Translations under genes and position numbers: made by a program | Notes under the pieces: generated by a model | The model's database searches: none | What the model was told of the DNA's origin: nothing | What the model saw: the letters and a program-made list of their open reading frames with translations, nothing else | Shown: positions 13,976 to 32,319 of the stretch, in pieces | How positions within the stretch are numbered: position 1 is the first letter of the stretch | Layout: every line of letters starts with the position of its first letter | DNA from: Methanobacteriota archaeon | GTDB taxonomy: Archaea > Thermoplasmatota > E2 > DHVEG-1 | Length of the DNA stretch: 32,319 bases | Assembly: GCA_017885605.1 (NCBI GenBank) | Contig: JAFNFT010000101.1 | Location: 13,035 to 45,353, forward strand | Direction of reading: 5' to 3'

Positions 13976-15076
13976 TTATCGATGAATGAATTTTTTAATC
14001 TGATCAACGACGTACTGACGCTGTTTCGTTGTCAACTCAGGATACATAGGAATTGAGACGATCTCCGAGGCAAGCTGCTCAGAGACTGGGAACTGACCTT
14101 TTCGAAACCCAAACGAAGCATATGCAGGCTGCAGATGCAACGGGATCGGATAATGGATCCCACATTCGATGCCCTGCTGTTTCAGAGACGCCATCAACGC
14201 ATCACGCTGCTGCACCCGGATCACGTACATGTAATACACATGCTTCGCGCCCTTTGCCTCTAGGATTCTACCGACATTCGAAGGCAGATTCTTATCATAA
14301 AAACGTGCGTGCTCTCGACGCAACTCCGTCCAGTTCGAAAGATGGGATAGTTTGACATCTAAAATCGCTGCCTGCAGCGCATCCAACCGATAATTATATC
14401 CTTCGATCCGATGCTCATATTTTGTCGTCCGCCCATGATTCGCCAGTAACCGTAGCTTCTCCGCAAGCTCATCATAGTTCGTGATCACCGCCCCGCCATC
14501 ACCATAGCACCCGAGGTTCTTCGCAGGAAAGAAACTGAAACACGCGATATCCCCATAAAACCCGGGTTGATGACCGTTCCACTCTGCAGCATGCGCCTGT
14601 GCGGCATCCTCAATGACGAACAAATCGTGTTTCACCGCGATCTCTCGGATCCGTTGCATATCAGGCATCTGCCCATATAAATCCACCACGATGAGTGCTT
14701 TTGTCTTCTGAGTAATCGCCTTCTCTAACGCATCGATATCGAGCAGTGCCGTCTGTGGTGACACATCAACGAATTTGATCTTGCCACCGACATAGGAGAT
14801 GCATTCTGTCGTCGCAATAAACGTGTTAGGGACGGTGAGGACCTCATCGCCTTTTTTGATCCCCGCAGCCAGTAACGCAAGATGGATCGCCGCGGTCCCA
14901 TTCGCACACCCAATCCCATGTTTCACCTGGCAGAACCTGGCGAAATTCTCCTCGAATTTTTTCACATACGGCCCCATGATAAACGAGCTGCTCTCCAATA
15001 CACCCTTAATAGCACTGTCAATCTCTTTTCTGATAGAATGATAATTCGCCTTCAGATCCACGAGTGGAATATTCAT
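13976..15076 (-). CDS. wbpE: PLP-dependent sugar aminotransferase, WbpE-like (DegT/DnrJ/EryC1 family)
   Basis: A 366-residue fold-type I aminotransferase. The PLP-binding Lys186 lies in FFPAKNLGCYGDGG, the same arrangement as in Pseudomonas WbpE; Asp157 in EDAAQAHA contacts the cofactor, and GTAAIHLAL (60-68) is the phosphate-binding region. With the WbpB- and WbpD-like genes just upstream it should convert a UDP-3-keto-GlcNAc uronate to the 3-amino sugar using glutamate. The start is taken as the ATG at 15,076 because AGGAG lies 9 nt before it; a TTG nine bases earlier is possible. The AGGAG overlaps the end region of the acetyltransferase gene, so translation is probably coupled. A second, different DegT enzyme lies at 21,640-22,728. 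The exact substrate is inferred from context. Confidence 0.85.
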   Translation of the reverse strand: MNIPLVDLKANYHSIRKEIDSAIKGVLESSSFIMGPYVKKFEENFARFCQVKHGIGCANGTAAIHLALLAAGIKKGDEVLTVPNTFIATTECISYVGGKIKFVDVSPQTALLDIDALEKAITQKTKALIVVDLYGQMPDMQRIREIAVKHDLFVIEDAAQAHAAEWNGHQPGFYGDIACFSFFPAKNLGCYGDGGAVITNYDELAEKLRLLANHGRTTKYEHRIEGYNYRLDALQAAILDVKLSHLSNWTELRREHARFYDKNLPSNVGRILEAKGAKHVYYMYVIRVQQRDALMASLKQQGIECGIHYPIPLHLQPAYASFGFRKGQFPVSEQLASEIVSIPMYPELTTKQRQYVVDQIKKFIHR

Positions 15077-15088
15077 CAATGACAACTC

Positions 15089-15556
15089 CTACAGAGACCG
15101 TAGCCTCCGCGCAGGATTCCCAACGTACACCCCTGATTCCTTGATATCTTTTGTCACAACCGAGCCAGCGCCAATTACTACGTTATCCGTGATTGTGACC
15201 GGTAGAATCGTTGCATTCGTCCCAATCGACACATAACTACCGACCTTTGTCGGCCTCCACAAGGACCGATCACCACCAGCTGGTTTCCCTAAGGAAAATA
15301 AATCGTTGACAAACTTCACCCCATGAGAAATAAAACAGAAATCACCGATCGCCACCAGCTCACAGATAAACGCATGCGACTGCACCCGGCAGTTCTTCCC
15401 TATCTTGACGTTCCGCTGGATTTCTACAAACGGACCTATGAAACAATCATCACCGATCTCGCATTCGTAGAGGTTCACTGGCTCAACAACTGTGACGTTT
15501 TCCCCGAACGTCACATCCTTTATCTGCACTTTTTTAATCGTTGGTCTATTCTTCAT
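15089..15556 (-). CDS. wbpD: sugar N-acetyltransferase, WbpD-like left-handed beta-helix
   Basis: A 155-residue hexapeptide-repeat protein. Repeats such as IGDDCFIGPFVEIQRNVKIG and IGTNATILPVTITDNVVIG form a left-handed beta-helix that trimerises and binds acetyl-CoA, and the end (VGNPARRLRSL) is standard for the family. The likely reaction is acetylation of the 3-amino group of a UDP-GlcNAc(3N)A intermediate to give UDP-GlcNAc(3NAc)A. Supporting this, the WbpB-like dehydrogenase ends 19 bp upstream and the WbpE-like aminotransferase starts 12 bp downstream. An AAGGTG ribosome site precedes the ATG. Unlike its homologue at 21,065-21,643 it has no zinc-ribbon tail. In the presumed catalytic region, His58 and Asn83 positions (around SHGVKFVND) resemble WbpD, judged by eye only. 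Confidence 0.8.
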   Translation of the reverse strand: MKNRPTIKKVQIKDVTFGENVTVVEPVNLYECEIGDDCFIGPFVEIQRNVKIGKNCRVQSHAFICELVAIGDFCFISHGVKFVNDLFSLGKPAGGDRSLWRPTKVGSYVSIGTNATILPVTITDNVVIGAGSVVTKDIKESGVYVGNPARRLRSL

Positions 15557-15575
15557 ACGCGCACCTTCAGAAATA

Positions 15576-16589
15576 TTATCCTTTCATGGCAGCCTTATAG
15601 ATTTTCTCTATGATCTGAACGGTTTTCAACCCATCTAGCAGATCGGTCGTGATACTTCCCCCATGGACCAACACATCAATCACATTCTCATAGACCTTCT
15701 CATGATTTGACATCGATCCTGTATTCTTCCCATACACATTCGGGGGATTCCCTGGTTCAAGGCCGGTGATCTCATAGCCAGCAATCGACTGATACTCCAA
15801 AAGGTTCAGATACTGACCACCAATTTTTACGGTCCCTTTCTCCCCAAATAAGGTAATGGAACCTTCCATGTTTTTCCCATAGGAATTTATCGTAAAATGA
15901 ATCGTTCCCAAGGCACCATTCGTAAACCGTAGCACCACGACGCCAGTATCCTCGAATTCGATAACACCCTGATGGAGATAATTTTCGGTAAACGCTTGAA
16001 CCTCCTCAATATCACCAACAAACCAATACAAGAGATCAATGAAATGACTGTACTGCGTGAAGAGCGTCCCGCCATCCATGGCTAGCTTCCCACGCCAATC
16101 AGAACCAAGATAGTACTCACGGTTCCGATTCCAGAAACAATTTAGCTGCACACTGAGAATCTTTCCTAATTTTCCTTCATCGACAATTTTTTTTACTGCC
16201 TTGACTGGGGGATTGAACCGATTCTGTTTCACGATGAACAACCGCCGGTTCGTCTCCTCGGCGGTATGAATCATCCGTTCACAATCACGCACTGTCGTCG
16301 CCATCGGTTTTTCGCACAGCACGTTATAGCCGGCTTTCAACGCTTTGATACTATGCTCTGCATGCAGACCATTCGGAGTACAAATCGCAACGAGATCAAG
16401 AGATTTTTCTCCAACAAGTAACTCATCAAGAGAAAAATAAGATTTACAGTGATATTGTTCAGCGATACTCTTCGCCCGGTCTTGTTTTATATCACATACT
16501 GCCACTAAGGTACCCAGGTGACTCGCATGTTTCGCATGCTGAGAACCAATATGACCAACACCAACGACCGCGATGTGTAACTTGCTCAT
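15576..16589 (-). CDS. wbpB: Gfo/Idh/MocA dehydrogenase, WbpB-like
   Basis: A 337-residue NAD-dependent oxidoreductase. GVGHIG (residues 10-15) begins the Rossmann fold, EKP (93-95) is the family's catalytic Lys motif, KQNRFNPP (121-128) is a segment I associate with WbpB proteins, and DGGTLFTQYSHFIDLL (172-187) carries the active-site Asp/His region. WbpB oxidises C3 of UDP-GlcNAcA and, in Pseudomonas, works as a pair with the aminotransferase WbpE that follows here. The order dehydrogenase, acetyltransferase, aminotransferase on one strand supports that pathway. It is preceded by a possible internal promoter and a 5' hairpin. The UDP-GlcNAcA it needs could come from the 6-dehydrogenase at 22,697-24,055. 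Confidence 0.85.
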   Translation of the reverse strand: MSKLHIAVVGVGHIGSQHAKHASHLGTLVAVCDIKQDRAKSIAEQYHCKSYFSLDELLVGEKSLDLVAICTPNGLHAEHSIKALKAGYNVLCEKPMATTVRDCERMIHTAEETNRRLFIVKQNRFNPPVKAVKKIVDEGKLGKILSVQLNCFWNRNREYYLGSDWRGKLAMDGGTLFTQYSHFIDLLYWFVGDIEEVQAFTENYLHQGVIEFEDTGVVVLRFTNGALGTIHFTINSYGKNMEGSITLFGEKGTVKIGGQYLNLLEYQSIAGYEITGLEPGNPPNVYGKNTGSMSNHEKVYENVIDVLVHGGSITTDLLDGLKTVQIIEKIYKAAMKG

Positions 16590-16604
16590 GTCCGTCTCTC
16601 TTTT

Positions 16605-16624
16605 CCCACGAGAAAAAACGTGGG
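16605..16624 (-). promoter_or_regulatory. GC-rich hairpin just upstream of the wbpB-like start
   Basis: CCCACG (16,605-16,610) and CGTGGG (16,619-16,624) are perfect inverted repeats with an 8-nt A/T-rich loop. On the minus-strand mRNA the hairpin ends about 15 nt before the ATG at 16,589 and directly precedes the purine-rich ribosome site. It may affect translation or mRNA stability. Confidence 0.4.
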
Positions 16625-16650
16625 ATCACTACCGATATTTCCTCTCCCCT

Positions 16651-16659
16651 ATTTAAGAA
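16651..16659 (-). promoter_or_regulatory. possible internal TATA box before the wbpB-like gene
   Basis: Read on the minus strand, TTCTTAAAT lies in the 87-bp gap after the glycosyltransferase gene. A start 26 bp downstream would put the transcript's 5' end near 16,629, immediately before the hairpin at 16,624-16,605. Confidence 0.35.
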
Positions 16660-16676
16660 TAACAGACATGTTTTTT

Positions 16677-17678
16677 TTACAATTTTCTATACGCAATTCC
16701 TCGAAGAAAACCAGCACCATACCCCACATGGATCAACAAATAAAACAACACACTGCTCACCACGACGCTGGGTTTTCGTGTAATCTGCAGGGTACTGACC
16801 ATCGACATTAACACATACGCTACGATCAGACAGGGAATCACCCACAAAGGCAACAGACGCAGAATTGTCAGTAGCACAACCAGAACACCACCAAGGATAA
16901 ACCCTGGCCCAAGCAAATGGAAAAATTTCAAGGTATCATGGTGCTTCTTTACCATCTTCGCCCTCGCGATCCCATATCGGTACATCTGATGCCACAACGA
17001 TCGAATAGAATCCCGCTTAAAATGATAGACCTTCGTCTTCGGTATGTACAAGATTTTATATCCTGCCTTCCGAAGCCTGATATCAAGCTCGTAATCCTGG
17101 CCACACCAAAAAACAGGGTCGAAACCACCGACCTTTTCAACAGCTTCTTTTCGATAACAGGAGAACGACAGATGATCGGTATATCGTTCCTCTGGGAAAA
17201 CTGCGTTCTGAGAAAAAAAATTCCGTCCACCCATAAAACTCAAAAACGCAGCACCAGAGACTTCCCCAACAAAATTCTGCTTCCCCGGTGAAAGATTCGA
17301 ACAGCCAACCGCCGCCACATCAGCAGGTAGGCTCTGCAATCTCAAAGCAAGTTCTGTAAGAAGGTTCTTTTCAGCAATCACATGACCAGAATAATTCATC
17401 ACCATCTCACCAGTCGCATGTTGGATACAAATGTTCCGACCGATGGAGGTGTTTCCCGTCGGATTATCTAATAGGATTATATTTTTGTTTTTACTTGTGT
17501 ATTCTTCAAGGATAGCATTTGTATTGTCTCTTGACGGTCCTTTTGCTATTATTATCTCTGTTTTTTCTTTTGGATACTCCAAAGAAAACAGGGAATCCAA
17601 ACAGTTTTTTATGGTTTTTTCTTCATTGAGAACAGGCATGATGAAGGAGACTGTAGGGTTGTTATTTTTTTCAGACAT
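16677..17678 (-). CDS. family 2 glycosyltransferase with C-terminal membrane helices
   Basis: A 333-residue protein. The GT-A domain (about residues 8-235) opens with VSFIMPVLNEEKTIKNCLDSL and has the acceptor-side motif GQDYELDIRLRKAGY (193-207), whose Asp195-Glu197 should contain the catalytic base. Three hydrophobic segments (about 254-273, 277-296 and 303-325) anchor it in the membrane. The position that normally carries the metal-binding DXD reads NYSGHV (95-100), with no Asp, and the usual SxDGT loop reads GPSRDNTNA (47-54). The overall layout resembles ExoA-like GT2 enzymes. Its sugar donor is unknown; the UDP-diacetamido-uronate made by the three genes downstream on the same strand is the natural candidate. 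The start lacks a ribosome site and is probably leaderless. Confidence 0.85.
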   Translation of the reverse strand: MSEKNNNPTVSFIMPVLNEEKTIKNCLDSLFSLEYPKEKTEIIIAKGPSRDNTNAILEEYTSKNKNIILLDNPTGNTSIGRNICIQHATGEMVMNYSGHVIAEKNLLTELALRLQSLPADVAAVGCSNLSPGKQNFVGEVSGAAFLSFMGGRNFFSQNAVFPEERYTDHLSFSCYRKEAVEKVGGFDPVFWCGQDYELDIRLRKAGYKILYIPKTKVYHFKRDSIRSLWHQMYRYGIARAKMVKKHHDTLKFFHLLGPGFILGGVLVVLLTILRLLPLWVIPCLIVAYVLMSMVSTLQITRKPSVVVSSVLFYLLIHVGYGAGFLRGIAYRKL

Positions 17679-17703
17679 AAAGTGAAATCAGTATAGATAT
17701 GTG

Positions 17704-17712
17704 TTTATTTAA
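17704..17712 (-). promoter_or_regulatory. TATA box for the GT2 gene and the wbpB-D-E unit
   Basis: On the minus strand TTAAATAAA is centred 30 bp before the ATG at 17,678, with no ribosome site between. This predicts a leader of a few nucleotides. It shares a 164-bp intergenic region with the divergent plus-strand glycan operon. Confidence 0.45.
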
Positions 17713-17792
17713 CGTTAATCGAATGAAGAAAAGATAACAATCGGGATTTAATTTATGTGTAAGGTTTTTATAAGTTATCCATATACCGCCAC

Positions 17793-17801
17793 ATTATAAA
17801 A
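17793..17801 (+). promoter_or_regulatory. TATA box for the plus-strand glycan operon
   Basis: ATTATAAAA lies about 46 bp before the ATG at 17,843 and predicts transcription from about 17,823 with a 20-nt leader. Confidence 0.4.
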
Positions 17802-17842
17802 GATGGAGAAGATTGTATCTTTGCACATCGACTGGGAAAACC

Positions 17843-18967
17843 ATGAAAATTCTGATGATCCTTTCGAATCCTTTCATTGTTGACCCACGCGTCTATAAGG
17901 AGGCACTGTCACTTTCAGATGCGGGTCATGAGGTGACTGTTGTTTTTTGGGATAGACATGCTGAGTACCCAATAGATGATACCGTGGAAAAAGTGCATGT
18001 GATTGGAATCCGAAATAAAGGATTTATGAAGGTTTTGCCTCATGATTTATTCCGCAACCCTTTATGGTGGCGAAAAGCGTACAAAAAGGCATTGGAATTA
18101 TATAACAACGGATACAGATTTGATGTTGTGCATTGTCATGATTTAGACACGCTTCAGAGTGGAGTATGGTTAAAAAAACGCTTGAACGTTAAACTTGTGT
18201 ATGATGCCCATGAAATCTTTGGGTACATGATAGAAAAAACAATGCCGACATCCATAGCAAAAATTTCATTTTTGATTGAAAAACGGTTGATAAAAAAAGT
18301 TGATCACATCATTACAGTGAATGATCCATTAAAATCATTTTTTTCTAAAATCACCCATCATCCTATCGATATAGTAATGAATTGTGGAGAGCTCATTACC
18401 ACCACCTATACTCCTCCTAAAAATTCATTGTTCACCGTTTCGTATTTCGGGATCTTAGATTCGTCAAGAATGTTTCCAAAAATAGTAGAATATCTCGGGA
18501 TAATTGAGAACATTCAATTTCTTATTGCCGGAAAAAAAGCACGATTATACAAAGAGGTTGAAAAAGTATCAAAAAAATATAGCAATATTACTTTTTTAGG
18601 ATCAATTCCCTACAGCCAAGTCATTGAGAAAACGTTAGATTGCAATGTCATTCTTTGCATGCTTGATCCAGAGGAAAAAAACAATCAGGTGGGGCTACCA
18701 AATAAAATTTTTGAGGCGATGTTAACGGGAAGGCCAGTCCTTGTTACTAAAGGGCTTTACTACAGTAAACTGGTTGAAACGGAGAGATGTGGTGTTTCCG
18801 TGGAGTACGATTTCGAAGAAGTAAAGAAATCAATCATCATGTTACGAGATGATCCAAAACGATGTGAAGAGTTAGGAAAAAATGGATTACAGGCAGCAAT
18901 TCGAGAATATAACTGGGAAAAGCAAAAGAAAACACTCCTATCCGTCTATGAGAGGTTGAATGCATGA
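17843..18967 (+). CDS. family 4 glycosyltransferase (GT-B fold)
   Basis: A 374-residue GT-B enzyme. The N-terminus MKILMILSNPFIVDPRVYKEALSL is typical of GT4 proteins with a DxR donor/acceptor loop. VVHCHDLDTL follows, and the C-terminal nucleotide-sugar-binding region reads LPNKIFEAMLTGRPVLVTKG, containing the conserved Glu of the family. The start is the ATG at 17,843 because it is the family N-terminus; a TTG 30 bases upstream is in frame. It is the first gene of a tightly packed plus-strand operon: its stop overlaps the ATG of the 2-epimerase by four bases (ATGA). It probably transfers the ManNAc3NAcA-type sugar made by that operon. The donor and acceptor are not shown by sequence. Confidence 0.85.
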   Translation: MKILMILSNPFIVDPRVYKEALSLSDAGHEVTVVFWDRHAEYPIDDTVEKVHVIGIRNKGFMKVLPHDLFRNPLWWRKAYKKALELYNNGYRFDVVHCHDLDTLQSGVWLKKRLNVKLVYDAHEIFGYMIEKTMPTSIAKISFLIEKRLIKKVDHIITVNDPLKSFFSKITHHPIDIVMNCGELITTTYTPPKNSLFTVSYFGILDSSRMFPKIVEYLGIIENIQFLIAGKKARLYKEVEKVSKKYSNITFLGSIPYSQVIEKTLDCNVILCMLDPEEKNNQVGLPNKIFEAMLTGRPVLVTKGLYYSKLVETERCGVSVEYDFEEVKKSIIMLRDDPKRCEELGKNGLQAAIREYNWEKQKKTLLSVYERLNA

Positions 18968-20046
18968 AAATCGTTTCTATTGTCGGGGCTCGACCACAAT
19001 TCATTAAATGTGCTCCGGTATCAAAAGAGTTACGAAAAAATAATCATGAGATCTTGATTCATACCGGTCAACATTATGACTATGAACTCTCAAAAGTGTT
19101 TTTTGATCAACTTGGCATCCCTACACCTGATTACAATCTCGAGGTTGGTTCCGCGTCACACGGGAAACAAACCGGTACGATGCTTGTTGAAATTGAAAAG
19201 GTTTTACTCGATGAAAAACCTGATGTGGTTCTTGTGTACGGTGATACCAATTCAACACTTGCTGGTGCCCTTGCATCAGTCAAACTTCACATTCCTATCG
19301 GACATGTTGAGGCAGGATTGCGAAGTTTTGATAGAAATATGCCAGAGGAGATCAACAGAGTGCTCACCGACCATGCATCGGATCTGTTATTTGTTCCTAC
19401 ACAAACAGCGGTGACTAATTTGAAAAAAGAGGGGATCTCTCAAGGTGTTTTTTTGGTCGGGGATGTCATGTACGATGTCCTAAAGCAGAGTACGGGGATA
19501 GCAAGCAAATCTCAGATCCTTGAAATACTTGGGGTACAACCAAAAGAGTATTTTCTAACAACGATTCACCGGCCATCAAATACGGATAACATACAGAATC
19601 TCTCCCAAATTTTAGAGATTCTTTCTTCTGCAGCTAAAAAAGTTATCTTTCCCGTACATCCTCGCACTATGCATTTCATTAAGAAACATGGCCTGGAACG
19701 AAGCATTGGGGCGAATGTGCATATGATGAAGTCAGTGAGTTATTTTGATTTTCTCTGGCTTGAACAAAACGCAGAAAAAATTTTGACTGACTCTGGTGGC
19801 ATACAAAAAGAATCCTACATATTGAAAGTTCCCTGTATCACGTTAAGAGAAAACACGGAATGGGTTGAAACGATAGCGGACGGATGGAACGTTCTTGTAG
19901 GAACCAATAAAGAAAAAATAATAGATGCAATACAACACTTCAATCCAACAGGTGAACAAAGAGACCTTTTTGGTACGGGTGATGCGAGTACAAAAATAGT
20001 TAAAATAATAGAAGATTACGGGTCAGATAGCATCAATCATACTTAG
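18964..20046 (+). CDS. wbpI: UDP-HexNAc 2-epimerase, WbpI/WecB type (non-hydrolysing)
   Basis: A 360-residue enzyme inverting C2 of a UDP-GlcNAc-type sugar. Motifs: GARPQFIK (8-15), HTGQHYDYELS (33-43), VGSASHGKQTGTML (61-74), GDTNSTLAGAL (93-103), HVEAGLRSFDRNMPEEINR (114-132), and GGIQKES in the C-terminal half. The SASHGKQTG form and the GDTNSTLAGAL/HVEAGLRSF pair resemble WbpI (UDP-GlcNAc3NAcA 2-epimerase) at least as much as WecB. Since the next three genes make the 3-acetamido group, UDP-GlcNAc(3NAc)A to UDP-ManNAc(3NAc)A is the most likely reaction. UDP-GlcNAc to UDP-ManNAc, feeding the dehydrogenase at 22,697, is the alternative. Its ATG overlaps the upstream glycosyltransferase stop by four bases, implying coupled translation. 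Confidence 0.88.
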   Translation: MKIVSIVGARPQFIKCAPVSKELRKNNHEILIHTGQHYDYELSKVFFDQLGIPTPDYNLEVGSASHGKQTGTMLVEIEKVLLDEKPDVVLVYGDTNSTLAGALASVKLHIPIGHVEAGLRSFDRNMPEEINRVLTDHASDLLFVPTQTAVTNLKKEGISQGVFLVGDVMYDVLKQSTGIASKSQILEILGVQPKEYFLTTIHRPSNTDNIQNLSQILEILSSAAKKVIFPVHPRTMHFIKKHGLERSIGANVHMMKSVSYFDFLWLEQNAEKILTDSGGIQKESYILKVPCITLRENTEWVETIADGWNVLVGTNKEKIIDAIQHFNPTGEQRDLFGTGDASTKIVKIIEDYGSDSINHT

Positions 20047-20087
20047 TGATGTATGTAAGAATAACCATATATTGGGGGAATTTCGAT

Positions 20088-21068
20088 ATGATCAAAATAG
20101 GCGTAATTGGGACCGGTTCAATGGGGAAGAATCATGCACGGGTTTGCTCTGAGTTACATGATGTTGAACTCGTAGGTATTTGTGATGTTGATAAAAGCAC
20201 AGCAAAGATTGTTGCTGAGAGATTTCATACACAAGCATTTACATCCTACCAAGATCTTATATCAAAAGTCGATGCTGTCATCATTGCAACGCCGACATCA
20301 ACTCATTTTGATATCTCGACTAAAGCACTTTCTTCCGGGAAACATGTGCTCGTGGAAAAACCAATCTGTGACACGATTAAAAATGCTCAAGAAATGGTCA
20401 AAAAAGCTGAAGATGAACACCTGGTGTTAGCCACAGGTCATATCGAACGGCATAACCCTGCTGTCGCATTTGTGAAAGAAGGGATTCAGAAGAACAGATT
20501 TGGTGATGTCATTAGTTTGAGTTCTCAACGGGTGAGCAATCTACCCGGGCGCATTAGAGATGTAGGCGTGATTCTTGATTTTGGTGTACATGATATTGAT
20601 GTGATGCGGTTTTTATGTGGTGAGGTTCTTTCTGTCTATGCCAAAGCTGGGGTTTATACTAAAAAAATACAGTATGAGGATCATGCAACGATTCTTTTGA
20701 ATTTTGAAAATGACGTCTGCGGTGTAGTTGAAGTAAACTGGCTTACTCCTATTAAGATTCGGAAGATTTTTTTGACATGTTCAGAGCAGTTTGTTGAAAT
20801 GGATTATATAGATCAATCCGTTACCGTGTCTTCATCTCGTTTCAAGGCTGTTGATGAAATGGATTTATATCATGTTCCAATGCAGTTTACAAGCAGTCAC
20901 ATTGGTTTAGAACGAAAAGAGCCTTTAAAAAATGAGATACAGGATTTTATTCAAGCAATAAATGCTCATAAGAAACCATTGGCATCAGGGTATGATGGTC
21001 TTATGGCACTTCGTATCGCACAGGGTGCTCTTCAATCCTATAAAACTGGGGACGTGGTTAGATTATGA
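20088..21068 (+). CDS. Gfo/Idh/MocA oxidoreductase, probable UDP-GlcNAc 3-dehydrogenase
   Basis: A 326-residue NAD-dependent oxidoreductase. Its Rossmann motif GTGSMG is at residues 8-13, EKP at 90-92, and GHIERHNPAV at 117-126. The last motif, in place of the KQNRFNPP seen in the WbpB-like gene at 15,576-16,589, puts it in the branch I associate with the methanogen enzyme oxidising C3 of UDP-GlcNAc itself (acetamido-sugar biosynthesis in Methanococcus). The start is the ATG at 20,088, preceded by GGGGGAA, where the conserved N-terminus begins; an in-frame GTG lies at 20,046. Its last bases overlap the acetyltransferase ATG (ATGA). The presumed product, UDP-3-keto-GlcNAc, would go straight to the aminotransferase at 21,640. 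Substrate assignment is inference. Confidence 0.82.
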   Translation: MIKIGVIGTGSMGKNHARVCSELHDVELVGICDVDKSTAKIVAERFHTQAFTSYQDLISKVDAVIIATPTSTHFDISTKALSSGKHVLVEKPICDTIKNAQEMVKKAEDEHLVLATGHIERHNPAVAFVKEGIQKNRFGDVISLSSQRVSNLPGRIRDVGVILDFGVHDIDVMRFLCGEVLSVYAKAGVYTKKIQYEDHATILLNFENDVCGVVEVNWLTPIKIRKIFLTCSEQFVEMDYIDQSVTVSSSRFKAVDEMDLYHVPMQFTSSHIGLERKEPLKNEIQDFIQAINAHKKPLASGYDGLMALRIAQGALQSYKTGDVVRL

Positions 21069-21643
21069 TTCATAAGACCGCAATTGTAGAAGAAGGCGCG
21101 CAACTTGGTGAAGGAACTCGGATCTGGCATTTTGCTCATGTTCGAAATGGAGCCAAAATCGGGAAAAATGGGAACATTGGAAAAGATGTCTATATCGATA
21201 CGAACGTGGTCATTGGGGATAACTGTAAAATCCAAAATTTCGCATCTTTATATCATGGTTTAACAGTTGGTAATGATGTGTTCATCGGCCCTCATGTTTG
21301 TTTCACCAATGACCTCTATCCCCGTGCTATTATCTGGAGTGATGAACGTTTAGCGAAAACAAAAGTAAAAGATGGGGCATCGATTGGGGCGAACTCAACT
21401 ATTGTCGCTGGTATTACCATTGGAGTTTCTGCGATGGTTGGTGCCGGTTCTGTGGTGACAAAAGACGTTCCCGATCACGCTCTTGTTTTTGGAAACCCTG
21501 CTCGGATACACGGTTTCGTCTGCGACTGTGGCATGAAACTTGAAAAGAAGGGTACGAAAAAGAACGTGGTGGTATTCCGCTGTACACAATGCGGAAAAGA
21601 AGTAAGTATTGAAGATTCAATCTATAAGGAGTGTGAAGAATGA
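21065..21643 (+). CDS. sugar N-acetyltransferase with C-terminal zinc-ribbon-like tail
   Basis: A 192-residue protein. Residues 1-149 form a left-handed beta-helix of hexapeptide repeats (IGKNGNIGKDVYIDTNVVIG, then the FIGPHVCFTNDLYPR active-site turn), ending in VTKDVPDHALVFGNPARIHG, as in WbpD-type acetyl-CoA transferases. A 43-residue extension follows with Cys153, Cys155, Cys173 and Cys176 in a C-x-C ... C-x-x-C layout, a probable zinc ribbon that is absent from the WbpD-like paralogue at 15,089-15,556. It should acetylate the 3-amino group produced by the next gene. It overlaps the genes on both sides by four bases (ATGA), so the three enzymes are probably made in step. The role of the metal tail is unknown; it could aid assembly. 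Confidence 0.83.
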   Translation: MIHKTAIVEEGAQLGEGTRIWHFAHVRNGAKIGKNGNIGKDVYIDTNVVIGDNCKIQNFASLYHGLTVGNDVFIGPHVCFTNDLYPRAIIWSDERLAKTKVKDGASIGANSTIVAGITIGVSAMVGAGSVVTKDVPDHALVFGNPARIHGFVCDCGMKLEKKGTKKNVVVFRCTQCGKEVSIEDSIYKECEE

Positions 21644-22728
21644 TACCTATAGCGAAACCATTGATTGGGGAAGAAGAAAAAACCGCGGTCATGCGCGTTC
21701 TCGATTCCGGCATGCTTGCAAGCGGCCCAAGAACTGAGGAATTTGAGAAAAATTTTGCTGAATATGTTGGAACGAAATATGCGATGGCAACCACCTCAGG
21801 CACCACCGCATTACATCTCGGTTTACTCGCCTTAGGTGTAGCCCGAGGAGATGAAGTCATTCTTCCTGCTTTCTCTTTTATCGCGACAGCAAATGTTGTG
21901 TTATTTTGCGATGCAGTTCCTGTTTTTTGTGATGTCGACCCGAAGACATTCAACATCGATCCAGAAAAAATAGAGAAACTGATCACGAAGAAGACGAAAG
22001 CGATTATGCCTGTTCATCTCTATGGGCAAGCTGCTGATATGAAACCAATTCAAGAAATCGCAGATAGTCATGATATCCATGTAATTGGTGACGCATGCCA
22101 AGCACATGGCGCAGCCTATGATGGAAAAATGGTCGGTTCATTTGGTGACGTTGAATGCTTTTCATTTTATCCGACGAAGAATATGACCACAGGAGAAGGC
22201 GGGATGGTCACAACAGACAATGAGCAGATCGCTGAACTGACAATTTCTCTCAGAAATCATGGTCGTGAAAAGACGAAATGGGGATATGAACATGGACGGT
22301 TAGGATATAATTATCGTATCACCGACATCGGAGCAGCGATAGGTCTTGAACAGTTAAAAAAATTACCAAAGAATATTGAGATACGGCAGAAAAATGCACA
22401 GTATTTTAACACTCATTTGAACAGTGTTGAAATCCCTTACGTCATTCCAAAAGCGAAACATGCATACCATCAATATACCGTGAAAAGCAAGAATCGCGAT
22501 GCTCTCACGCAGAATTTAAAGAAAAATGAGATAGGTTTTGGGATTTACTATCCACAACCTTTACATTCATATAAACATTTAAAGAAATACGAGCATAAGG
22601 ATTTGAAAATATCAGAAAAACTAGGAACTGAAGTGGTATCATTACCAGTTCATCCAGGACTTACAAATGAGGAATTAGTAAAGGTGGTTGAGGCTGTTAA
22701 TATGGCTTACCAATACCCCGATAAATAA
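21640..22728 (+). CDS. PLP-dependent sugar 3-aminotransferase (DegT/DnrJ/EryC1 family)
   Basis: A 362-residue aminotransferase. Lys180 in FYPTKNMTTGEGGM is the PLP Lys, Asp151 in GDACQAHGAAY contacts the pyridine ring, and TTSGTTALHLGLLALG (51-66) binds the phosphate. The Lys context differs clearly from the FFPAKNLGCYGDGG of the other DegT enzyme (13,976-15,076), so the two are separate subgroups, not a recent duplication. Together with the upstream 3-dehydrogenase and acetyltransferase it completes conversion of a UDP-GlcNAc-type sugar to its 2,3-diacetamido form. It is the last gene of the operon. Its 3' end overlaps the convergent 6-dehydrogenase gene by 32 bp. Confidence 0.87.
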   Translation: MIPIAKPLIGEEEKTAVMRVLDSGMLASGPRTEEFEKNFAEYVGTKYAMATTSGTTALHLGLLALGVARGDEVILPAFSFIATANVVLFCDAVPVFCDVDPKTFNIDPEKIEKLITKKTKAIMPVHLYGQAADMKPIQEIADSHDIHVIGDACQAHGAAYDGKMVGSFGDVECFSFYPTKNMTTGEGGMVTTDNEQIAELTISLRNHGREKTKWGYEHGRLGYNYRITDIGAAIGLEQLKKLPKNIEIRQKNAQYFNTHLNSVEIPYVIPKAKHAYHQYTVKSKNRDALTQNLKKNEIGFGIYYPQPLHSYKHLKKYEHKDLKISEKLGTEVVSLPVHPGLTNEELVKVVEAVNMAYQYPDK

Positions 22729-24055
22729 AACCTGCCTTCTCACATTCTTCTTTATTATATGCATTTCTTCCATCAATTAGGACCGGATTCTTCATTTTCT
22801 TTTTAATCTCGGTTAGATCCAAATTCAGATACTCCTTGTGTTTTGCAAGTATTACTATTGCATCTGAAGCTTTTATTGCATCATCAAGATTAGATGTAAA
22901 TGGATAATCAAAATCTTTTACATATGGGTCATGAAGAACTGGATTTGCTCCTTTTTTCTTTACAATTTCATAAAATGGTTTTGTGGGGGTATTTCTCGTA
23001 TCATCAGAGTTTTCTAAAAATGCGACACCTAAAATTGCGATTTTCGCTCCCTTTAAATCTTTTCCAGCTTGTTTTAGTCCGTCTTCTAGAAGGTTTACTG
23101 TGTGTTCTGGCATATACATATTCATGCGTCTACTTTCGATAATGACATTTGGTTTGACTTTAAATTTCCCGTATGTATCAACACCATATTTGAAAAGCCA
23201 TGGATCTTTAGGCAGACAATGGCCTCCAACACCTGCTCCAGGAAAATGCATATTTCTTACAGGATTTGCAGCAGGATTTGATGGATCATTTGGTAATGTA
23301 TTTACAAGTTCTCTAACCTTGTACACATCAATTCCTAAGCTTTCACACATCAAGGCTACTTCGTTTGCAAAAGCAATATTCACATCACGGTACGTGTTTT
23401 CAACGACTTTTGATACCTCTGCAGTAAGACAATCTGTTGGAAATAAAGGTGCCTGGACTATGTGTTTGTAAAGTTCTATTGCTCTTTCTGTACTTTCTTT
23501 ATCAATGCCTCCAACAATTCTGGGAAGTTTAGTAATATTATGAAGAAGACGACCTACCATGACTCTTTCATACGAGAAGGCAAGAGAAAAATCAGATCCA
23601 GCTTTCATTCCTGATTCTTTTTCAAGGATGGGTTTTACAATATTTTCTGTTGTACCTGGTGCAACAGTTGATTCGATAACGACTAAAACGTCTTTAGGCA
23701 TCGTTTTACCGATTTTTTTACTTACTTCTTTTAAAGATTCGTAATGTGGAACTCCTTTTTCATCTGTAGGTGTTTGGACATCAATTAAAATAACATCTGC
23801 GTTTTTACATTCGTTAAAATCATCAGTAACATGAAATGTGTTTTTCTTTACGACTTTTTCAATCAATTTATTAAGACCTGGTTCATCCCCCCCAATCGGA
23901 TTTTTTCCTTTGTTAAGCAAGTCTATTTTCCAACCGGAACGTTTTGATTTTCTCTGAATCCCAATAACATTAAAACCTTTTACATCTGCAAAAAGACAAG
24001 CAGCTGGTATACCAACGTAACCCATTCCTACTACAATGATTTTCTTTAGCATCAT
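22697..24055 (-). CDS. UDP-N-acetylhexosamine 6-dehydrogenase (WecC/WbpA type)
   Basis: A 452-residue member of the UDP-sugar dehydrogenase family. VGMGYVGIP (residues 8-16) binds NAD. The catalytic Cys280 lies in GVGGHCLPKDPWLF, the GGHC-LPKD form typical of enzymes acting on UDP-GlcNAc or UDP-ManNAc rather than UDP-glucose. The dimerisation helix (VENTYRDVNIAFANEVAL) and C-terminal domain (GVAFLENSDDTRNTP) are complete. It would supply the uronate oxidation needed for GlcNAc(3NAc)A or ManNAc(3NAc)A, and UDP-GlcNAcA for the WbpB-like enzyme. Two tandem ATGs occur (24,055 and 24,052); a TATA-like TTAATAAA centred 24-26 bp upstream fits a leaderless start at either. Which C2 epimer it uses cannot be read from the sequence. 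Confidence 0.87.
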   Translation of the reverse strand: MMLKKIIVVGMGYVGIPAACLFADVKGFNVIGIQRKSKRSGWKIDLLNKGKNPIGGDEPGLNKLIEKVVKKNTFHVTDDFNECKNADVILIDVQTPTDEKGVPHYESLKEVSKKIGKTMPKDVLVVIESTVAPGTTENIVKPILEKESGMKAGSDFSLAFSYERVMVGRLLHNITKLPRIVGGIDKESTERAIELYKHIVQAPLFPTDCLTAEVSKVVENTYRDVNIAFANEVALMCESLGIDVYKVRELVNTLPNDPSNPAANPVRNMHFPGAGVGGHCLPKDPWLFKYGVDTYGKFKVKPNVIIESRRMNMYMPEHTVNLLEDGLKQAGKDLKGAKIAILGVAFLENSDDTRNTPTKPFYEIVKKKGANPVLHDPYVKDFDYPFTSNLDDAIKASDAIVILAKHKEYLNLDLTEIKKKMKNPVLIDGRNAYNKEECEKAGFIYRGIGKPY

Positions 24056-24147: not shown

Positions 24148-25287
24148 GTGAAAAATATACCACGAGAATATCAAATCTGTAAACGCTGTGTAATGGATAC
24201 GACAGATCCAGATATTGTTTTTGATGAAAATGGTTACTGCAATCATTGCACAGATGCCTTGAAGAAGCTCAATTCGTATCCGATTAATCTCAGCAAAGTG
24301 GAAAAAGAAAAAGAACTGCAAAGGATCGTTGCAGAAGTAAAGGAATCAGGTAAGAACAAGCAGTATGATTGTATTGTGGGAGTCAGTGGTGGTGTCGACA
24401 GCAGCTATGTGCTATATTTAGTAAAAAAACTTGGTTTACGTCCGCTTGCTTTTCATTTGGACAACGAGTGGAATACAGAGCTTTCTGTAAAAAATATCGA
24501 GAAAGTGACAAAAAAATTGGATGTAAAACTCCATACGATGCATGTTGATTGGGAGGAATTTAAAGATTTGCAACTTGCTTTTTTGAAATCATCGACACCA
24601 GACCTTGAGATACCAACAGACCACGGGCTTCTCGCAGCACTATACAAAGTGGCAGCAGAATACAAGGTGAAATATATCATCAGTGGGCATAATTTTATCA
24701 CAGAAAATATCTCAGTGCCTACCTGGTCCCATGGACATTATGACTGGCGCTATGTCAGATTAATGCAAAAGAAATTTGGTACAAGAAAACTCACCAGCTT
24801 CCCTCATTTAAGCATGTATTCTCTTGCATCACAACAGCTATTCCGCGGAATTAAAATCATCAGAATCCTCAATTATGTGCCAGAATACGATAAGAAAAAG
24901 ATCATATCTTTCCTGGAAAAAGAATTTGGATGGCAGAATTATATTACAAAACATGCCGAGTCTATCTATACTTTTTTTGTCCAAGCATACATCCTACCAA
25001 CTAAATTCAATTATGATAAGCGGAAGATGCATTTATCAGATCTCATCTGTGCAGGTCAGATGACACGTGACGAAGCCTTAGAGACATTAAAAAAACCACT
25101 TTTTACAGATCTAGAACTGAAAGAAATGATTGAACGTGTATGTAAAAAATTTGGTATCACGAAAGAAGAATTTGATGCGTTTATGAAACTGCCAAACAAA
25201 AGCTACTATGATTATCCGTCATACGAAACACATCCAATTTATAGAATTCTACGAGATATCTATAAAAAAGTCAATCCTCAGATATAG
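24148..25287 (+). CDS. wbpG: N-acetyl-sugar amidotransferase, WbpG/PseA type
   Basis: A 379-residue protein of the ATP-PPase type. A four-cysteine metal site is formed by Cys11, Cys14, Cys31 and Cys34 (ICKRCVMD and YCNHC), and the PP-loop SGGVDSS at residues 80-86 binds ATP. In Pseudomonas the homologue, with a HisH/HisF-like ammonia-supplying pair, turns the 3-acetamido group of ManNAc(3NAc)A into an acetamidino group; AglX/Y/Z of Methanococcus maripaludis are linked to the same archaellin glycan modification. The upstream genes can make exactly that substrate. No HisH- or HisF-like gene lies in the window, so ammonia would come from elsewhere. The start is GTG because the family N-terminus begins there and the closer ATG at 24,138 is out of frame. 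The family call is firm; the sugar is inferred. Confidence 0.88.
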   Translation: MKNIPREYQICKRCVMDTTDPDIVFDENGYCNHCTDALKKLNSYPINLSKVEKEKELQRIVAEVKESGKNKQYDCIVGVSGGVDSSYVLYLVKKLGLRPLAFHLDNEWNTELSVKNIEKVTKKLDVKLHTMHVDWEEFKDLQLAFLKSSTPDLEIPTDHGLLAALYKVAAEYKVKYIISGHNFITENISVPTWSHGHYDWRYVRLMQKKFGTRKLTSFPHLSMYSLASQQLFRGIKIIRILNYVPEYDKKKIISFLEKEFGWQNYITKHAESIYTFFVQAYILPTKFNYDKRKMHLSDLICAGQMTRDEALETLKKPLFTDLELKEMIERVCKKFGITKEEFDAFMKLPNKSYYDYPSYETHPIYRILRDIYKKVNPQI

Positions 25288-25393
25288 ATGATCGTTATTA
25301 TCTTATGCGAATTGATAATACAAGTAATTTGTTTACAAGTATGAAAAAAGTCAAGGGAAAGTCTATTTATTCATTTGTTAGGTGATATTTAAA

Positions 25394-26401
25394 ATGACAA
25401 CAATATGCTTTGTAGGCAACCCTCAAGACTCTTTTATCAAAGAAGATTATTTACGTTTAAAAATTTTTTTCAATATAAATGTAGTTGATCCACCTAGAAA
25501 ATGGAGCTTACCAGCATGGTTAAAATTTCTTTGGCTCTTGCTAAAAAATGTAAGAAAATCGGAATTAACCTATTGTTGGTTTGCTGGAGCTCCAGCGGCT
25601 TTTGCAGTTTTATTTTCCAAATTATTCGGAAAAAAAACAATTGTCATGGTTGGTGGATGGGACGCATCGTATTTTCCAGAGATACATTATGGAGCGTTTA
25701 TAAAATTTAAAGATAGAATACCCGTAAAATTCGTCTATAAACATGTAGATAAAATACTTGTTGTAGCACCGTTTTTAAAAGATGACATCGTAAAATATGC
25801 AAAAGTGAAAGGTGACGGTATTGAATGTGTTCCGACCGGATTTAACCCTGATTACTGGAAACCAGATGGAAAGAAAGAAAATATTGTTATCACCGTTGCA
25901 GGGGCTAAAACACTCCTGAATGTAAAATTGAAAGGGTTAGAAACATTTGTTCGATCTGCAGTGCATATACCGGAGGTAAAATACATTGTTATTAATGTGA
26001 GAGATGATGCGAAATTATATCTTGAACAAATATCACCAAAAAATGTTGAATTTACTGGATTTCTTCCTGATGACGAAATTCTTAACTATTATCAGAGAGC
26101 AAAAGTATATTGTCAACTTTCTTATCGAGAAGGATTACCAACTGCTTTATGCGAGGCAATGCTTTGTGAATGTATCCCTGTTGGAAGTAAAGCTGCTGGA
26201 GTCATGGCTGCTATCGGCGATACGGGTTTTTATGTTGAATACGGGGATGAAAAAGGAACTGCAGATGTGATTCGAAAAGCTTTAGATTTAAAAAATGAGT
26301 TAGGGAAAAAAGCAAGAGAGAGAATTAAAAATTCATTCCCTGAGAAAAAAAGAACGGATAAGTTGAAAAATTTAATTTTAGAGATGGTAATCTCCTCATA
26401 A
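25394..26401 (+). CDS. family 4 glycosyltransferase (GT-B fold)
   Basis: A 335-residue glycosyltransferase. The N-terminal half is a degenerate GT-B Rossmann domain (TTICFVGNP, then KKTIVMVGGWDASYFP). The C-terminal half has VEFTGFLPDDEILNYYQRA and the EX7E donor motif in YREGLPTALCEAM, both characteristic of GT4. A GGTGAT ribosome site 7 nt upstream favours the ATG at 25,394 over the in-frame GTG at 25,382. It follows the amidotransferase after 106 bp, an AT-rich interval without another gene, and may share its transcript. Its end overlaps the convergent SDR gene by six bases. The donor and acceptor are unknown. Confidence 0.85.
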   Translation: MTTICFVGNPQDSFIKEDYLRLKIFFNINVVDPPRKWSLPAWLKFLWLLLKNVRKSELTYCWFAGAPAAFAVLFSKLFGKKTIVMVGGWDASYFPEIHYGAFIKFKDRIPVKFVYKHVDKILVVAPFLKDDIVKYAKVKGDGIECVPTGFNPDYWKPDGKKENIVITVAGAKTLLNVKLKGLETFVRSAVHIPEVKYIVINVRDDAKLYLEQISPKNVEFTGFLPDDEILNYYQRAKVYCQLSYREGLPTALCEAMLCECIPVGSKAAGVMAAIGDTGFYVEYGDEKGTADVIRKALDLKNELGKKARERIKNSFPEKKRTDKLKNLILEMVISS

Positions 26402-29902: not shown

Positions 29903-31417
29903 TTATCTGCCCTTCAATTCGTCAATAATATATGCTAACATTTTCTTTATGTTTAACGTGTCTAGAAACAAATTAAAATCTTCCTTATTAAACTCCCTTA
30001 AAATGAAAAGAATACCAAGATAAATGAACAAACCTAAAAGAGAAATTCCAATCAATTCATACCATCGACCAATATAAAAAATATTTGTTAGATAGTAAAT
30101 AATGATTCCCATCAATGCAGCAGATACGATATGTAATATTATTCTATGATTACCTTTCATATTTGCAACACGAAATGCATACACTCTCGTGGTAATGAAT
30201 CCGACAAAATATGCTATCACAATTGCGAGAGCAGAACCAGTAGCACCTAAACCCGCTAATTTAAGACCTAGACTTTGTATGTCCACTGGAACCAAAATGA
30301 GGTTCAAAACAATGCTCACTATCATCATAAGTAAGATTCTGTTCCGGACGATATGTGGCATGTTCATCCCTTGTAACTGACTCTGATATGGCTGTGATAA
30401 CACCTCAAAAAGAACAAAAAAAGGCAAAATCTGCAAAACGGTTAAAGCAGGTAAATATTTATCACTCAATAAAATATGAATAACCGGTTCTGCTAAAACA
30501 ACGAGTAATATAACAATCGGAAAAGTAATCATGCTCAGATACCGTTCAGATGTCAATGTCAATTTTCTAATATCATCCATATAATTTTTCGCATGATACT
30601 CTGATATTGTTGGTAACAAGAGAACAGCAAGGGCCGAGGAAAAGTTTAGAACGAAACGTGATAAATTGAACACAGCAAAATATTCTCCGACCTGCTGGGC
30701 ACCCCAAAACAACTGAATGAATACTTTATCAATATTCAATATAACGATATATGACGCTGACGCAATCGCCATGGGAAAAGCAAACTTTGCATAATTTTTT
30801 AGATAATCGAGCGATGGTTTCTTGACAGGATATGTTCTAAAAAAATAATAGGCAACAACGAATTGGAAGACCTCGCCTATAAGATAAGTATATGCTAATG
30901 CTAGGACACCAAATCCAAAATATGCTATGATAATTGTAATAAAAACCCGTATTATTGTATAGATAAAATATGGTATCTGACCTTTAGCGATTTCTTTTTT
31001 AGCGGAAAAAGTCGTAGTGAACACCTGGGACAGATTAGCTAAAACAAAATAGAAAAGCAAGATGTAGACTGCTTGCTCGTGCACTGGTGTTTCAAATCCT
31101 CGTCCAAAAACAAATCGCCATAGAATTATCGATAAAATCGTAGCAGAAGCAAGAATGCCAGTTAAAATTAATTTAGTCGCGGCAAATGTACCAACACATT
31201 TACCCTCATCTTTCCCCTCGGAGATCCGCTTGACATGTGCCGCTCCAAAACCTAAATCTCCAAAAATTGAAAAAAGGGCGACAAAACCGTACGCAAAACC
31301 AACAACCCCGTACTCCCAAGGCTGCATATATAATGCTATGAACTTAAGCCCAATAAAACCAAGAATGCCGTTTAGCAGTTGAATGAATATGATAAGAGCT
31401 GATTTTCGCGCTATCAT
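29903..31417 (-). CDS. wzx: Wzx-like lipid-linked oligosaccharide flippase (MOP/PST superfamily)
   Basis: A 504-residue polytopic membrane protein of the normal family length, with about 12-14 hydrophobic helices. The opening MIARKSALIIFIQLLNGILGFIGL, the early YGVVGFAYGFVALFSIFGDLGFGAAHVKRISEG and the later VLQILPFFVLFEVLSQPYQSQLQG are typical of polysaccharide transporters of the Wzx/RfbX group. It should flip the finished undecaprenyl- or dolichyl-linked glycan across the cytoplasmic membrane. No Wzy polymerase or AglB is seen. The start has no ribosome site but a TATA element 24-25 bp upstream, so it is probably leaderless and heads the minus-strand unit that runs through the methyltransferase, LegB, nucleotidyltransferase and SDR genes. 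Confidence 0.88.
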   Translation of the reverse strand: MIARKSALIIFIQLLNGILGFIGLKFIALYMQPWEYGVVGFAYGFVALFSIFGDLGFGAAHVKRISEGKDEGKCVGTFAATKLILTGILASATILSIILWRFVFGRGFETPVHEQAVYILLFYFVLANLSQVFTTTFSAKKEIAKGQIPYFIYTIIRVFITIIIAYFGFGVLALAYTYLIGEVFQFVVAYYFFRTYPVKKPSLDYLKNYAKFAFPMAIASASYIVILNIDKVFIQLFWGAQQVGEYFAVFNLSRFVLNFSSALAVLLLPTISEYHAKNYMDDIRKLTLTSERYLSMITFPIVILLVVLAEPVIHILLSDKYLPALTVLQILPFFVLFEVLSQPYQSQLQGMNMPHIVRNRILLMMIVSIVLNLILVPVDIQSLGLKLAGLGATGSALAIVIAYFVGFITTRVYAFRVANMKGNHRIILHIVSAALMGIIIYYLTNIFYIGRWYELIGISLLGLFIYLGILFILREFNKEDFNLFLDTLNIKKMLAYIIDELKGR

Positions 31418-31437
31418 CGGAAGCGAATTCTTTATTC

Positions 31438-31445
31438 GTTATAAA
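31438..31445 (-). promoter_or_regulatory. TATA box for the flippase gene (leaderless)
   Basis: TTTATAAC on the minus strand is centred 24-25 bp before the flippase ATG at 31,417, and no Shine-Dalgarno site lies in between. Confidence 0.45.
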
Positions 31446-31500
31446 TAGATATGTAATCCTTCGTTTTTTCTCCTTAATTTTATGTTCTTTTAAAAAGGAT

Positions 31501-32319
31501 TTACAAAATAATCGCTTTCGGTGTAATTTCACCTTTTACGACAGCTCCTAGGCCGATAAAAACATTATTCCCAATCATAGTTCCGACATTGATAGCAGAA
31601 TTAATTCCCGTTTGAGCATTATCCCCCATCACCATCCCGAGTTTCCGTCGTTTTGAATCGATTTTCTTTCCATTTAATGTCACAACAATGTTTTTTTTAT
31701 CAAGCCTGAGGTTTGCAACGGTGGTTCCTGCTCCAAGATTACAGTTTTGTCCAATAACAGAGTCACCAACGTAATTGAGATGGGGGACGTTACTAAAATC
31801 CATAATGATTGAGTTTTTCACCTCGCAGGCGTTTCCAACATGGCAGTGATTTCCGATGGTAGTATATGGCCTGAGATAACAATTTGGTCCGATTTTACTA
31901 TCATTTCCGATTACCACCGGACCTTCAATGTAAGTGCCTGAATGAATCACGGTGCCTTTTCCTACGATTATCGTTCCATTTATTCCTACGTTTTTCTCCA
32001 CTGTCCCCTGGATTTTTGTTTTCATTTTCTTTAAGAGCTCTTCGTTTGCATCAAGGAGATGCCAGGGGAAGGCGACATCTCGCCATTCTTTGAGAAATAC
32101 GCCTTCCATTGGTTCTTTGCTTACCAGCAAGTTAATCGAATCTGTGATTTCAAATTCTCCTCGCGGTGATTTTTCCGTCTTTCTGATATAGTCAAAGATC
32201 TGTTTGTTGAAATGGTAAACTCCTGCATTGATAATATTAGATGAGGGATGTTCCATTTTTTCATGAATGTTCATCACGTGTTTTCCCTTGAGTTCCACGA
32301 TGCCGTATTCTGTTGCGTT
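31501..32319 (-). CDS. GlmU-like bifunctional sugar-1-P nucleotidyltransferase/acetyltransferase, partial (5' end outside the window)
   Basis: The last 272 residues of a longer protein; the frame is open through the right edge, so the N-terminal NTP-binding part is not visible. The visible portion begins NATEYGIVELKGKHV, the middle of a nucleotidyltransferase domain, continues with SNIINAGVYHFNKQIFDYI and RGEFEITDSINLL, and from about 31,501 to 32,000 becomes a left-handed beta-helix (IEGPVVIGNDSKIGPNCYLR, GNHCHVGNACEVKNSIIM, HLNYVGDSVIGQNCNLGAGT). This arrangement is that of archaeal GlmU-type enzymes making UDP-GlcNAc or UDP-GalNAc and of related glucose-1-P thymidylyltransferases. The HLNYVGDS and GAGT elements favour the GlmU side. 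UDP-GlcNAc is the precursor of most products of this cluster. The end lies 84 bp from the flippase start on the same strand. Confidence 0.82.
   Translation of the reverse strand, partial: NATEYGIVELKGKHVMNIHEKMEHPSSNIINAGVYHFNKQIFDYIRKTEKSPRGEFEITDSINLLVSKEPMEGVFLKEWRDVAFPWHLLDANEELLKKMKTKIQGTVEKNVGINGTIIVGKGTVIHSGTYIEGPVVIGNDSKIGPNCYLRPYTTIGNHCHVGNACEVKNSIIMDFSNVPHLNYVGDSVIGQNCNLGAGTTVANLRLDKKNIVVTLNGKKIDSKRRKLGMVMGDNAQTGINSAINVGTMIGNNVFIGLGAVVKGEITPKAIIL

Follow-up and report, generated by a model that had tools for sequence, protein, structure and literature searches.

A WbpG-type amidotransferase lies in a predicted nucleotide-sugar cluster

The window analyzed here is a stretch of 32,319 nucleotides, positions 13035-45353 of contig C101 in the draft genome of an uncultured archaeon (G000; 2.40 Mb in 108 contigs, 91.13% complete). 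On its plus strand, an open reading frame at 24148-25287 begins with GTG, at the same point as its 86% identical orthologue in genome G199, and encodes a protein of 379 amino acids. The protein scored 325.6 bits against TIGR03573, the NCBIfam model for the WbuX/WbpG/NASAT family (cut-off, 203.2). It carries a tetracysteine site (C11-x2-C14 ... C31-x2-C34) and an SGGVDSS PP-loop at residues 80 to 86; residues C11, C14, C31, C34, S80, G81, G82, D84, and S85 were invariant across alignment A1. An alignment of 39 relatives that have a nearby partner gene gave 33 columns invariant or nearly so, and the window protein deviates from these only at 132 and 160. Its AlphaFold model (mean pLDDT, 92.2) gave 8WEX as the top PDB match (Foldseek E value, 3.5e-16; TM, 0.65/0.64; rmsd, 6.3), followed by much weaker matches to carbapenam synthetase, TtuA, LarE, and NH3-dependent NAD synthetases. 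The structure 8WEX is that of LpNASAT from Legionella pneumophila (PMC10607449), which resembles the window protein in fold, tetracysteine site, and PP-loop but is 17% identical to it in the structural alignment and has SGGKDS where the window protein has SGGVDSS. The TIGR03573 family comprises at least two kinds, one SGGVDSS-like and one with SGGKDS. Family score, motifs, and predicted fold all place the window protein among the N-acetyl sugar amidotransferases. An earlier note had called it a WbpG-type enzyme from the four-Cys site and the SGGVDSS loop, and the TIGR03573 score upholds that call. The alternative raised there, an unrelated ATP-PPase, did not hold: scores and predicted fold match this family and not other PP-loop families, in a comparison that did not include WbpG itself.

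The gene is flanked, as the earlier note had it, by a divergently oriented nucleotide-sugar 6-dehydrogenase gene (22697-24055, minus strand; TIGR03026, 369.9 bits against a cut-off of 189.8; candidate WbpA-like) and by a GT4 glycosyltransferase gene (25382-26401, plus strand; PF00534, 64.6 bits), whose counterpart in contig G114:C118 is 79% identical. Four further plus-strand genes encode a candidate WbpI-like non-hydrolysing UDP-sugar 2-epimerase (18964-20046; TIGR00236, 344.5 bits, cut-off 210.15), a candidate WbpB-like 3-dehydrogenase of the Gfo/Idh/MocA family (20046-21068; 346.1 bits against NF040723, UDP-GlcNAc 3-dehydrogenase, below the cut-off of 450), a candidate WbpD-like hexapeptide acetyltransferase (21065-21643; PF00132, 77.7 bits; NeuD/PglB family, 100.9 bits, below the cut-off of 160.8), and a candidate WbpE-like DegT/DnrJ aminotransferase (21640-22728; PF01041, 446 bits, with no NCBIfam cut-off reached). 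All five broad families of the UDP-ManNAc3NAcA pathway (WbpA, B, E, D, and I) are therefore encoded together at 18964-24055, and five enzymes of these families are described as making UDP-ManNAc3NAcA (PMC10622841). A curated NCBIfam cut-off is reached by just two of the five, the 2-epimerase and the 6-dehydrogenase subfamily, so we can only infer the exact sugar.

A polysaccharide flippase-like gene (29903-31417, minus strand; PF13440, 108.5 bits) marks a conserved edge of the cluster. Compared with locus L152 of the same genus (G073:C50), the window is conserved at its edges (13979-22728 and 29903-32298) and carries a different middle cassette. In this syntenic cluster, the transaminase and acetyltransferase are 84% identical to those of the window and the flippase 78% identical, and hisH and hisF follow a WbuX with 43% identity to the window protein. 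Since the edges are conserved and the middle is not, these sequences suggest an O-antigen-like exchange of the middle cassette, here in an archaeon.

HisH and HisF were not detected in the 91%-complete draft genome

A machine of three proteins is commonly associated with acetamidino sugars, and the partners of WbpG are of HisH/HisF type. Searches of the window and of the remainder of its 61-kb contig (13.1 kb to the left and 15.7 kb to the right) detected no homologue of either HisH or HisF, so the possibility that the pair lies just outside the window was rejected. Across the draft genome, no match to HisH (TIGR01855) exceeded the cut-off, HisA/HisF (PF00977) gave only partial matches of 19 to 36 bits, and HisG was not found. 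The best of the partial PF00977 matches reads, by sequence, as a geranylgeranylglyceryl-phosphate synthase. The absence of partners beside the gene, claimed in the earlier note, is thus confirmed and extends to the whole draft. Two of the explanations offered there for it found no support: the draft shows no pair encoded elsewhere, and the sharing of histidine-pathway HisH and HisF was rejected for this draft because HisG, HisH over cut-off, and HisA/HisF of real strength are all missing from it. Given that neither the contig nor the draft holds a dedicated hisH and hisF, the window gene was not classed as part of a glutamine-dependent, three-part WbpG-HisH-HisF system. The window protein is a real member of a known N-acetyl sugar amidotransferase family without the usual partners.

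A search with PF00117 returned four proteins of class I glutaminase fold in the draft: two of 360 and 557 amino acids, by size CarA and CTP synthase, and two that read by sequence as GuaAa-like and DJ-1-like. A PdxT-like protein adjoins a PdxS-like one (names again from sequence reading). The draft also encodes a second, divergent WbuX-like protein (L156:9334-10515, contig G000:C71; 154 bits, below the cut-off), which lies among glycosyltransferase genes and likewise has no partners.

WbpG of Pseudomonas aeruginosa O5, described in connection with ManNAc3NAmA (PMC10607449), is like the window protein in belonging to this family and in having the ManNAc3NAcA families alongside, a likeness drawn through the family and not from an alignment with WbpG; unlike WbpG, the window protein has no partners in its cluster or draft genome. 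In a different archaeal lineage, MMP1081 of Methanococcus maripaludis, compared here by description, is homologous to WbpG and acts on a sugar of an N-glycan, and its deletion is reported, as unpublished results, to lose the acetamidino group (PMC2952790). We found no description of family members without partners in the open-licence literature.

Closely related enzymes differ in the presence of partner genes

A close match to the window protein was present in 6 of 45 genomes of its GTDB family, its own included, and 17 of 292 genomes of the phylum had a TIGR03573 match over the cut-off. The window protein groups with copies from G114, a genome of its own genus (contig C118; 91% identical, interrupted), and G199 (86%). 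None of these three orthologues has a partner nearby, and G114 holds a pair elsewhere. Their sister is a second G114 copy (contig C52; 69% identical), whose gene is immediately followed by hisH and hisF (support, 100/99). HisH and HisF were not found in the 83%-complete draft G199, which holds the closest intact orthologue. The interrupted orthologue (L138:3129-7465) is broken by about 4.3 kb carrying an open reading frame for an Mrr_cat endonuclease and a short one with a DDE transposase match.

Among 24 genomes of the phylum tested (with strong or weaker matches), HisH exceeded the cut-off in five (G073, G114, G169, G181, and G141) and was not found over it in the other 19. In each of the five, one HisH directly adjoins a WbuX; a second set, including HisA and HisF, is present in G169 and G181.

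We counted a partner as adjacent when at least one of hisH and hisF was present, the neighborhood being taken as within about 1.5 kb in Bacteroidota. A partner adjoined 27 of the 30 Bacteroidota loci sampled from 41 matches in 395 genomes (both genes at 25 loci and HisF only at 2), and at the remaining 3, HisH/HisF lay farther away in the region, at distances of up to about 15 kb. The corresponding figures were 8 of 12 loci in Spirochaetota (392 genomes; of the four others, two duplicate a Treponema already sampled) and 17 of 22 in Pseudomonadota (398 genomes; one more locus has partners in its cluster). HisH exceeded the cut-off in 22 of the 29 named bacterial genomes (bins) with relatives; six of the seven without it also lacked a strong HisA/HisF match. 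Several lineages contain family members that have no nearby partners.

Several minor observations came from these loci. Two or three WbuX matches per genome were seen at L169, L170, L173, and L175 (genomes G346, G559, G508, and G353, respectively). In G508, one region holds two WbuX genes and a single HisH/HisF pair, which suggests that one pair can serve several amidotransferases. Loci L112 and L113 encode near-identical WbuX proteins although their bins carry the names Azovibrio restrictus and Bacteroides, which points to possible contamination of one bin. In a Clostridia bin, WbuX is split over two reading frames (L123:9998-11102).

Residue 132 tracks the presence of nearby partners

A column scan picked out position 132, which in the AlphaFold model is predicted to be the last residue of a strand spanning residues 128 to 132. 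Valine occupies this position in all 64 rows with an adjacent partner gene and in all 4 whose cluster contains one (68/68), a count that omits the duplicates L171, L197, L208, and L225. It includes L105, L169, and L174, which have HisF only, L110, which has HisH only, and L126, counted as adjacent with its pair about 5 kb away. L113, a near-copy of L112, is among the 64 and was omitted from the earlier partnered sets, including that of 39 rows. In the 27 rows without a nearby partner, valine was retained in 11 and replaced in 16: by histidine in the window clade (3 rows), by lysine, threonine, or glutamine in an 11-row clade drawn mostly from gut bacteria, by threonine in one of two Treponema copies, and by lysine in L109, from a genome without HisH or strong HisF. 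The 27 include nine rows that lie at contig ends or have HisH elsewhere in the genome, all with valine; among the other 18, six of the gut clade come from genomes with HisH over the cut-off, and L138 comes from G114. Counted by genome, position 132 is not valine in 7 of 9 rows without HisH over the cut-off and in 7 of 81 rows with it, the latter being six gut-clade rows and the broken G114 copy. Valine persists without HisH over the cut-off in one Treponema copy and in L150, which lies on a 3-kb contig. Where a partner is nearby, position 132 is thus always valine, but a missing partner need not bring a change.

On the tree, residue 132 changes four times, always in lineages without nearby partners. 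Rows left out ahead of the counts were one short open reading frame from L116, the fragments at L122 and L123, the smaller of the L138 fragments, L127, L128, and L097-L099, which copy other loci; six rows had N-terminal stretches trimmed. Of the 33 columns conserved in the 39 partnered rows, 4, 8, 4, and 3 depart in the four lineages, and column 132 alone departs in all four. About 0.01 columns would be expected to do so if all columns behaved alike, a rough guide given that columns differ in rate, that two of the window-clade departures lie where L138 is broken off, and that L150, with valine, was not counted as a lineage. With few contrasts available, independent-pairs tests did not reach significance whichever of three labellings was used (median P of 0.25 or 0.5). 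A further 8 and 16 partnered rows from two other phyla, obtained after the pattern had been seen, all have valine (24/24), and two later rows without nearby partners have threonine and lysine and join the gut clade. Other positions were set aside. Position 219, a proline linked to partners in the first sets, was rejected because partnered Spirochaetota and Pseudomonadota rows carry lysine, threonine, and arginine there; positions 107 and 127, altered in the window clade, are unaltered in nine gut-clade rows.

Free ammonia is the probable nitrogen source of the window enzyme

Once shared or elsewhere-encoded partners fall away, free ammonia or a different glutaminase is left. Replacement of HisH and HisF by a different glutaminase, either a stand-alone amidase or another class I glutaminase of the genome, appears rather unlikely. 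It draws on the single-contig genome G123, which has no HisH over the cut-off and no strong HisF. There, the stop codon of a gene for a distant, SGGKDS-type (NASAT-type) member of the family overlaps the start codon of an amidase gene by one base (L140:9834-12316, G123:C1), and the product is a GatA-like amidase-signature protein (PF01425, 265.7 bits; gatA, 238.3 bits, below the cut-off of 481.1). Because of this overlap, glutaminase replacement may happen in this family, and the window's genome keeps free-standing GuaAa-like and PdxT-like glutaminases, named from their sequences and neighbors. However, none of the 20 window open reading frames scanned with Pfam, a subset of the total, belongs to an amidase or glutaminase family, and a tblastn search of the window and 247 loci with the G123 amidase as query matched only G123's own two loci. 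Nor did any of ten genes beside bacterial homologues without nearby partners fall in a glutaminase family, four of them matching no Pfam family at 1e-8. A common replacement glutaminase adjoining partnerless genes was thus not found in the Pfam scan of those ten genes or by tblastn over the loci. Less probable still is that the partners exist and fall within the missing 9% of a draft in 108 contigs. Glycan islands do assemble and bin poorly in metagenome bins, but the G199 draft, from the same family, also lacks partners, and in both genomes the contig that carries the gene shows none alongside it; HisG is missing too from the window's genome, and the change at residue 132 is common to the three orthologues.

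We give a lower probability again to a change of chemistry or substrate in the window clade, to another nucleophile or another N-acyl sugar, such that no glutaminase is needed. The PP-loop relatives TtuA and LarE do transfer sulfur, and positions 107 and 127, conserved in partnered rows, are glutamate and lysine in this clade. Set against this are the mere 2 of 33 conserved columns altered in the window protein, the UDP-ManNAc3NAcA families flanking its gene, and the synteny and high identity of the partnered G073 cluster. Decay of the gene to a state without any product is highly improbable: the insertion in the G114 orthologue would fit decay, but the window and G199 copies have full-length open frames, are 86% identical, and keep their motifs.

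Our best explanation, advanced tentatively from sequence and at a little under even confidence, is that the window protein is active as an amidotransferase of WbpG type, no longer relies on HisH as glutaminase or on HisF as ammonia conduit, and uses free ammonia. Free ammonia is the probable source because neither of the usual ammonia-supplying partners turned up in the draft genome. The activity, the substrate, the ATP chemistry, free ammonia as the nitrogen source, and the role of residue 132 are predicted parts of this model. The five flanking enzymes would supply UDP-ManNAc3NAcA, whose 3-acetamido group would be activated with ATP, yielding AMP and PPi, a chemistry proposed for the NASAT family from structure 8WEX (PMC10607449). 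The product of attack by free ammonia would be ManNAc3NAmA, a 3-acetamidino sugar that the glycosyltransferases of the cluster may place into a surface glycan. Loss of V132 could reflect a constraint released, or a re-tuning, where a partner delivers ammonia; we found no account, in the open-licence literature, of the way in which HisF feeds the amidotransferase. This reading has to accommodate a genome that is 91% complete, the 11 of 27 partnerless rows that keep V132, and the 3 of 5 pathway enzymes below curated cut-offs.

A parallel is offered by the NAD synthetases, in which the glutaminase is described as fused, clustered, remote, or absent and the archaeal single-domain enzyme as using ammonia (PMC3376133). 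The window enzyme would be a NadE-like, ammonia-dependent variant that arose after loss of the glutaminase/tunnel pair. The type N NAD synthetase of that account is, like the window protein, a PP-loop amidating enzyme whose glutaminase depends on lineage, but it belongs to another family with another substrate, and the study found no residue that discriminates by itself. A broader proposal, possible but on balance doubtful, is that WbpG-type enzymes independently lost HisH-HisF several times and became ammonia-only, with loss of valine at the end of strand 3 marking both these lineages and the HisF hand-over point. If free ammonia is indeed used, amidine sugars would be expected even in organisms that make no histidine. 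The 69% identical archaeal pair, with and without the machine, together with a candidate residue, makes ammonia delivery directly testable.
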